From assembly GCA_004297225.1 (NCBI GenBank), contig SCUI01000003.1, positions 62,001 through 126,000 of the forward strand: a stretch of 64,000 bases of DNA. Direction: 5' to 3'. The notes beneath the pieces are model-generated. The model was not told the origin of the DNA. It saw only the letters and a list, made by a program, of their open reading frames with translations, and searched no databases. The translations under genes were made by a program, and so were the position numbers. This DNA is from Lysobacteraceae bacterium. Its GTDB lineage: Bacteria > Pseudomonadota > Gammaproteobacteria > Xanthomonadales > Xanthomonadaceae. Below, piece after piece: positions 17,384-19,044 of the stretch; within the stretch, counting starts at the first letter, position 1; each line of letters starts with the position of its first letter.

Positions 17384-18781
<1,398 letters not shown>

Positions 18782-18786
18782 GCCGT

Positions 18787-18793
18787 TATTCTA
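18787..18793. promoter_or_regulatory. Shared symmetrical -10 for sdaA and the glutaredoxin-like gene
   Basis: The seven bases read TATTCT on the plus strand (18787-18792) and TAGAAT on the minus strand (18793-18788). Each lies six bases from a start codon: ATG 18799 (+) and ATG 18781 (-), 18 bp apart. Both messages would be leaderless and could not initiate at the same moment. Confidence 0.45.
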
Positions 18794-18798
18794 TGCCG

Positions 18799-19044
18799 AT
18801 GGCCCGTCCTGAAACCGTGCGATTCCTGTTGTTCCAGCGCGACGATTGCCGGTTGTGCGACGAGGCGCTGGCGGTGCTGGCGGCGGCGCGCGCGCCCGCG
18901 TTCGAGAGCGTCTTCATCGACGACGACGCCGCGCTCGAGGCGCGCTACGGTACCCGCATCCCGGTCTTCCGCGACACCCGCCACGACCGCGAGCTCGACT
19001 GGCCGTTCACCGTCGAGGCGGTCGGCGCCTTTACCGGGGATTGA
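18799..19044 (+). CDS. Small glutaredoxin-family (DUF836-like) protein
   Basis: An 81-residue thioredoxin-fold protein with a CRLC redox pair near residue 14 (RDDCRLCDEAL), TRIPVF containing the cis-proline, and a short C-terminal end. It resembles the YruB/DUF836 glutaredoxin-like group; the substrate is unknown. I choose the second ATG (18799) because TATTCT lies 6 bases before it and the first ATG (18793) would be upstream of the predicted transcript. It overlaps the convergent YceI gene by 14 bases. Confidence 0.75.
   Translation: MARPETVRFLLFQRDDCRLCDEALAVLAAARAPAFESVFIDDDAALEARYGTRIPVFRDTRHDRELDWPFTVEAVGAFTGD

Follow-up and report, generated by a model that had tools for sequence, protein, structure and literature searches.

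Bidirectional promoters, described by Warman, Grainger and colleagues, contain one symmetrical −10 element in which the −11A of each direction is paired with the −7T of the other, and their divergent starts lie most often 18 bp apart (PMC10268837 and PMC12825309, in the parts accessible). The same sources attribute the T found at −18 to the opposite strand starting with A. Such promoters have hardly been studied so far according to the accessible part of PMC12825309, which also states that competition between the two directions appears only if one of them is strong. Leaderless genes, in turn, carry a TANNNT hexamer approximately 12 bp upstream of the start codon (PMC3160421, PMC3898074 and PMC12340547, in part). 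One described pair of divergent neighbours, prpD and Rv1129c of M. tuberculosis, gives leaderless mRNAs on both sides, and a legend in PMC3898074 describes divergent promoters in close juxtaposition as common. The word "leaderless" is absent from the accessible text of PMC12825309, "divergent" is absent from the accessible main texts of PMC12340547 and PMC3160421, and the accessible parts of the three papers on leaderless genes mention no shared −10. Among the matches listed in literature searches, with subscription literature mostly outside them, no paper dealt with divergent leaderless pairs sharing a −10 or with an sdaA/glutaredoxin pair.

The locus described here lies between sdaA and a divergent glutaredoxin-like gene, glrx. 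It resembles the bidirectional promoters of PMC10268837 and PMC12825309, as far as their accessible text goes, in its symmetrical −10 with reciprocal pairs and, on the predicted starts, in an 18-bp distance and a −18T opposite a +1A, but differs from them, their starts having been mapped experimentally, in that its start codons would themselves serve as start sites and promoter bases. As in known leaderless genes, TANNNT lies approximately 12 bp before each start codon and no leader is predicted. The locus is also like prpD/Rv1129c in being divergent and, by prediction, leaderless on both sides, whereas the accessible part of PMC3898074 gives neither a shared −10 nor a spacing for that pair. 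Provided that each transcript starts on its ATG, all features of a bidirectional promoter fit sdaA/glrx, and the site would be an extreme new variant of this known type. Specifically, the heptamer TATTCTA is in our judgement quite probably a single bidirectional σ70-type −10 for both genes, with both mRNAs leaderless in this clade. By uniting a −10 that works in both directions with leaderless starts, each already known, such a site would form about the tightest divergent control region possible.

The start region of sdaA and glrx

The window, by which we mean the whole 64,000-nt stretch of DNA analysed, contains sdaA at 17384–18781 on the minus strand and glrx at 18799–19044 on the plus strand, both predicted to be leaderless. 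The sdaA product (465 aa; TIGR00720, PF03313, PF03315) scores 703.8 bits against TIGR00720, with a cut-off of 345.1, identifying it as a single-chain L-serine ammonia-lyase. The glrx product, a glutaredoxin-like protein of the DUF836 type, scores 35.9 bits against PF05768 (cut-off 26) when read from 18793, and has no NCBIfam match at E 0.001. The 3′ ends of glrx and a convergent YceI gene overlap by 14 bp (19031–19044).

Direct reading of the plus strand at 18779–18801 gives CAT-N5-TATTCTA-N5-ATG. On the minus strand the CAT (18779–18781) reads as the ATG that opens sdaA, with its A at 18781, and the ATG of glrx occupies 18799–18801, with its A at 18799. Between them, the seven bases at 18787–18793, delimited by sequence and by conservation in the family, read as TATTCT on the plus strand (18787–18792, the proposed and weak glrx −10) and as TAGAAT on the minus strand (18788–18793, the proposed and strong sdaA −10). 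As the original prediction had it, each hexamer lies 6 bp from its start codon and the two start-codon A residues are 18 bp apart; the letters confirm both this geometry and the double reading of the heptamer. The −10 is thus readable on both strands with reciprocal pairing of −11A and −7T, the key base pairs being 18788 and 18792. Furthermore, the T:A pair at 18781 would be the +1A of sdaA and the −18T of glrx, while the A:T pair at 18799 would be the +1A of glrx and the −18T of sdaA, following the scheme in the accessible part of PMC10268837.

A second in-frame ATG of glrx, at 18793, overlaps the heptamer. Relatives L011, L061 and L064 lack this codon and keep the ATG matching 18799, so the originally predicted glrx start is the better choice. 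A consensus scan of 18650–18950 detected no promoter that includes a −35 match, whichever strand was read. The window contains a single TATTCTA, where 0.09 would be expected, and TANNNTA as such is at chance level, with 4 occurrences against 4.9 expected. The full frame CATN5TANNNTAN5ATG is found in the source genome (2.5 Mb, 229 contigs) only at this locus, and its reversed control is not found at all.

The spacing was compared with 417 genes from the window and from 400 kb of G054, whose genus is the same; these genes were called by codon use, with promoter signals left aside. In this genus, TANNNT-N6-ATG is a genuine mark of leaderless genes: TANNNT precedes a near-start ATG at spacer 6 in 29 sites and at spacer 7 in 9, every other spacer up to 22 accounts for 0–2 sites, and gene-internal ATGs, taken as a control, have TANNNT at spacer 6 in 2. 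The spacer of 6 bp on both sides of the heptamer therefore coincides with the peak of the genus sample and would place each +1 on its start codon. Together, these data support the predicted symmetrical −10 with canonical 18-bp geometry and leaderless-type spacing on both sides.

The two hexamers, treated alike in the original prediction, are not equivalent. At spacer 6, TAGAAT outnumbers every other hexamer (8 of 29, this sdaA counted), and it makes up 8 of 36 at spacers 6–7 with this locus left out. In a profile of these 36 other leaderless-type sites TAGAAT has the top score and TATTCT stands at approximately the 11th percentile, which leads us to expect sdaA to be the stronger direction; judged by sequence, it should outdo the glrx direction. 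TATTCT is found at spacer 6 in the genus sample only at this glrx. When the scores of both strands are summed, TATTCTA ranks third among the 32 symmetrical heptamers.

Conservation of the heptamer and of its distance to the starts

A glrx match is present in 192 of 198 genomes of the family. Ninety glrx loci were opened, 30 returned by search and 60 chosen for genus coverage, and 86 of them have a divergent sdaA start within the stretch opened. TATTCTA is exact in 74 of these 86 loci, spanning 38 genera, whatever its distance to either start. Among the twelve non-exact loci, which were aligned by eye, seven retain TANNNTA, as TATCCTA (L007), TATTGTA (L093), TAGTCTA (L096, L103, L118) or TACTATA (L100, L119). 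The other five lack the first T, reading GATTCTA in L071 and CATTGTA in the remaining four (L023, L029, L066, L089), which belong to one genus, g10; glrx is still present in all five. The last A of the heptamer, needed by sdaA, is thus kept in 86/86 loci, and the first T (18787), which is needed only by the glrx-side hexamer and forms the −6 base of sdaA, is kept in 81/86. At other leaderless-type sites of the genus sample the −6 base is A in only 2 of 36, and none of 14 TAGAAT hexamers near other gene starts is followed by A. Retention in 81/86, set against 2/36 elsewhere, supports a working bidirectional −10 as read from sequence.

Conservation of the flanks is low. In a genus-weighted logo built from loci with the exact heptamer, the strongest flanking column is a G two bases to the right of the heptamer (87%). 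Across the 74 exact-heptamer loci the prevailing base at the expected +1 is C, not a purine, on either side (67% for glrx, 47% for sdaA).

The heptamer also lies between both genes in named records of Xanthomonas, Stenotrophomonas, Thermomonas, Luteimonas, Arenimonas, Coralloluteibacterium and Dyella flava, and in f12, another family of the order; in Luteimonas salinisoli, sdaA is at spacer 6. In f12, where the letters were read by eye, the sdaA hexamer is still followed by A in 18 of 20 loci with an adjoining glrx and in 2 of 4 sdaA loci where no glrx was found in the stretch, a weak contrast; its presence in these two means that retention of the A is not strictly tied to glrx. The corresponding base is G in a Dyella jiangningensis record without glrx and C in L196, which has glrx. 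TAGAATA was not found within 110 bp before sdaA in records of Thauera, Wenzhouxiangella, Noviherbaspirillum, Stutzerimonas, Rubrivivax and Actinomadura or in a Pseudomonadales bin and a Granulosicoccaceae bin.

Four loci have glrx with no sdaA in the 450 bp upstream. TATTCTA is still there in L081; L094 has TAGACT 7 bp before the ATG; L097 has TATAGAATG; and L099 has GATTCTA beside a divergent gene, presumably encoding a cytochrome b561. One further record, L184 (JAHREJ010000001.1), is titled Bacillus subtilis SK7B5, and its sdaA is 79% identical to that of the window, with an upstream region resembling Stenotrophomonas-type loci; it is probably mislabelled or contaminated.

The distances from the heptamer to the starts fall into two groups. 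On the sdaA side, the gap is 4–6 bp in 14 of 74 loci (exactly 5 bp in 12), and the next gap is 23 bp. On the glrx side, taking the ATG nearest to the conserved motif in 71 exact-heptamer loci, the ATG is at spacer 6 or 7 in six (12–13 bp from the first base of the heptamer), one further distance is 17 bp, and the rest are at least 32 bp. These bimodal gaps imply that each side tends to be either leaderless or provided with a full leader. In addition, three TAGTCTA loci outside the 71 (L096, L103 and L118, genus g9) place, by eye, their glrx ATG at a spacer of 6 or 7, and sdaA retains a 35-bp gap; of the two genes, only glrx would be leaderless there.

The exact 18-bp spacing of sdaA and glrx is confined to 5 of 198 family genomes, four of one genus (G000, G054, G108, G168) and G037; L006 has 19 bp. 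The flanks of the five look alike, as from one inherited event. The expectation that orthologous pairs would keep the 18-bp spacing thus fails outside one clade, and the −10 itself is conserved throughout the family; since it is conserved whatever the spacing, poor conservation of the spacing does not refute a shared −10. From the sequences compared, the conserved feature is the putative shared −10, not the 18-bp spacing, which suggests that a bidirectional promoter came first and may have been compacted to double leaderlessness later. In a tree of sdaA N-termini, leaderless sdaA takes at least 7 changes and leaderless glrx at least 4; the tree has few columns and leaves 49 of 82 inner branches open, and no evidence of independent origins was taken from it.

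Between the heptamer and the glrx ATG, 57 of 71 loci contain no other TANNNT and 14 contain some other one, such as TACCGT. A glrx promoter nearer to the gene, marked in some genera by CATAC/TACCGT-like words approximately 31 bp from the heptamer, was considered and rejected as a general solution because of the 57 loci. In three loci of genus g13 (L022, L027, L030) the two starts lie approximately 680–730 bp apart and TATTCTA stays 143–148 bp from sdaA.

Probable two-way use of one −10 and alternative readings

We infer from sequence that the heptamer is transcribed from in both directions. RNA polymerase would bind TATTCTA in either orientation, one at a time, so that the polymerases would exclude one another, with base pairs 18788 and 18792 acting as −11A and −7T for both directions. 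In this clade the exact start sites would be the start-codon A residues, making both mRNAs leaderless and translated as such, and each A would double as the −18T of the opposite direction. For most family members, this −10 would serve longer leaders, and the direction of evolutionary change would be from these to the double leaderless form as a derived compaction. As only one polymerase could load at any time, the two genes may compete directly; sdaA, having the better hexamer, would dominate, and its activation might lower glrx. Natural variants without a base needed by one direction only offer ready-made tests.

Alternatively, the heptamer could act as a −10 for sdaA alone. It would then be readable towards glrx simply because TATAAT-like sequences are symmetrical, and glrx would either be transcribed at a very low level or have an overlooked promoter within sdaA. 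This is in keeping with the inequality of the two hexamers, with the 14/71 loci that contain another TANNNT before the glrx ATG, and with the five loci that have lost the glrx-side T. We nevertheless regard it as unlikely, as the T at 18787 is retained far beyond what other −6 positions show, a solitary glrx (L081) is still preceded by TATTCTA, and the glrx ATG sits at spacer 6 or 7 in six compacted genomes and the three g9 loci. Much less probable is that TATTCTA is mainly the binding site of a transcription factor regulating both genes, its likeness to a −10 being secondary. The three middle bases are indeed unchanged in 74/86 loci, beyond what TANNNT needs, and the same heptamer lies next to a regulator gene in the ArsR-type/FMN reductase pairs described below; yet seven bases are short for a factor, the logo has no flanking palindrome, the variants TAGTCTA, TATCCTA, TATTGTA and TACTATA retain TANNNTA but not the middle, and no leaderless-type hexamer is commoner in the genus sample than TAGAAT. 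Least probable of all is chance, in which only one promoter of a compact divergent pair is real and the second ATG happens to lie 18 bp away: the rarity of the exact spacing and the alike flanks of its five carriers would fit, but the 18-bp peak recurs in unrelated gene pairs and in actinomycetes, and the spacing controls given below make coincidence unlikely. A shared bidirectional −10 is the reading we prefer, although several observations count against it: the missing −35 match, the low score of TATTCT, the prevalence of C at the expected +1 positions, the five losses of the glrx-side T, the A kept in f12 without glrx, the rarity of the exact 18-bp spacing and, as set out below, a share of two-sided sites at 20 bp little below that at 18 bp.

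The 18-bp frame in other gene pairs and genomes

The frame CATN5TANNNTAN5ATG, with 18 bp between the starts, occurs at 69 sites in 55 of the 198 family genomes, against 29 for the reversed control. With 4-bp gaps (16 bp) there are 9 sites in 9 genomes (control 34), and with 6-bp gaps (20 bp) 20 sites in 20 genomes (control 17). In 296 actinomycete genomes, 94 sites in 72 genomes have the 18-bp frame (control 37) and 15 sites in 14 genomes the 16-bp frame (control 58). The 18-bp totals of both groups and the reversed-control totals are tallies of per-genome tables. The 18-bp excess over the control is only approximately 2.4–2.5-fold, in family and actinomycetes alike, and the reversed pattern is an imperfect control, exceeding the forward count at 16 bp (34 against 9; 58 against 15); we therefore relied on the comparison of spacings. 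Nineteen named actinobacteria gave 6, 0 and 2 sites at 18, 16 and 20 bp, respectively, and L332 is the sole two-sided-looking site among the six.

Sites opened in the family were 60 of 69 at 18 bp, all 9 at 16 bp and all 20 at 20 bp. By a fixed two-sided rule (both ORFs at least 80 aa with a coding base pattern), 20/60, 0/9 and 5/20 are two-sided, respectively; the share at 20 bp is not much below that at 18 bp, so the 18-bp peak lies in numbers more than in share, and many of the opened sites are coding on one side only or lack long ORFs altogether. Pairs that we judged real but that fail the rule are L032, L033 and L056 (an ORF below 80 aa) and L122; L040, L050 and L170 pass it, but we doubt them. 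Our own judgement gives 21/60 at 18 bp and, with L160 doubted, 4/20 at 20 bp. Of the 94 actinomycete sites at 18 bp, 30 were opened, and six of these pass the rule, one of them doubtful and two the same pair.

The pairs judged real at 18 bp in the family comprise sdaA/glrx (5 sites), an HTH_20 ArsR-type regulator with an FMN reductase (9 sites, same heptamer), an IF-2B protein with an unknown gene (3 sites), a glutamyl-tRNA-synthetase-type gene with a phosphoesterase (2 sites), an ABC protein with a Na/H-exchanger-type protein (1 site) and an ABC protein with an unknown gene (1 site); for each of the five kinds other than sdaA/glrx, one pair was analysed with Pfam. We take the FMN reductase to be ArsH, the IF-2B protein to be MtnA and the phosphoesterase to be LpxH. 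On balance, these several Lysobacteraceae and actinomycete pairs lead us to favour the view that divergent leaderless pairs on one symmetrical −10 form a recurrent promoter class in leaderless-rich bacteria, with TANNNTA 5 bp from each ATG and each start codon acting as translation start, transcription start and opposite −18T. If so, this would be about the shortest two-gene promoter possible. The frame, with its peak at 18 bp, also provides a sequence-only handle for bidirectional promoters driving two real mRNAs.

In the four genera opened, TATTCTA lies at 18-bp spacing between the divergent ArsR-type and FMN reductase genes (L041, L042, L051–L053, L055, L058–L060, L179 and L180), and the reductase-side ORF from the 18-bp-frame ATG is short in L060 and L180. 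It seems possible, from the arrangement of these genes, that an ArsR-type regulator autoregulates a shared −10. At L131 and L132, the glutamyl-tRNA-synthetase-type and LpxH-like genes, both of which we presume to be essential, are apparently leaderless around one TAAAATA/TATTTTA heptamer.

Two other kinds of site recur without long ORFs. In genus g6, a site of type CATCGCGCTACTATA is conserved in six genomes (L123, L124, L177; G085, G111, G153), and the three opened loci (L123, L124 and L177) have only short ORFs, of at most 55 aa, on both sides; judged by sequence, such sites perhaps belong to small proteins or RNAs. An AT-rich site like CATAAATGTAATATATGCATATG recurs in genera g6 and g28 (L127, L128, L129), likewise without long ORFs. 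Finally, actinomycetes with genomes of 1.3–1.8 Mb (G368, G405, G434, G552, G578, G604, G636) share a conserved 18-bp site like CATCACAGTAGGGTAGGCAAATG.
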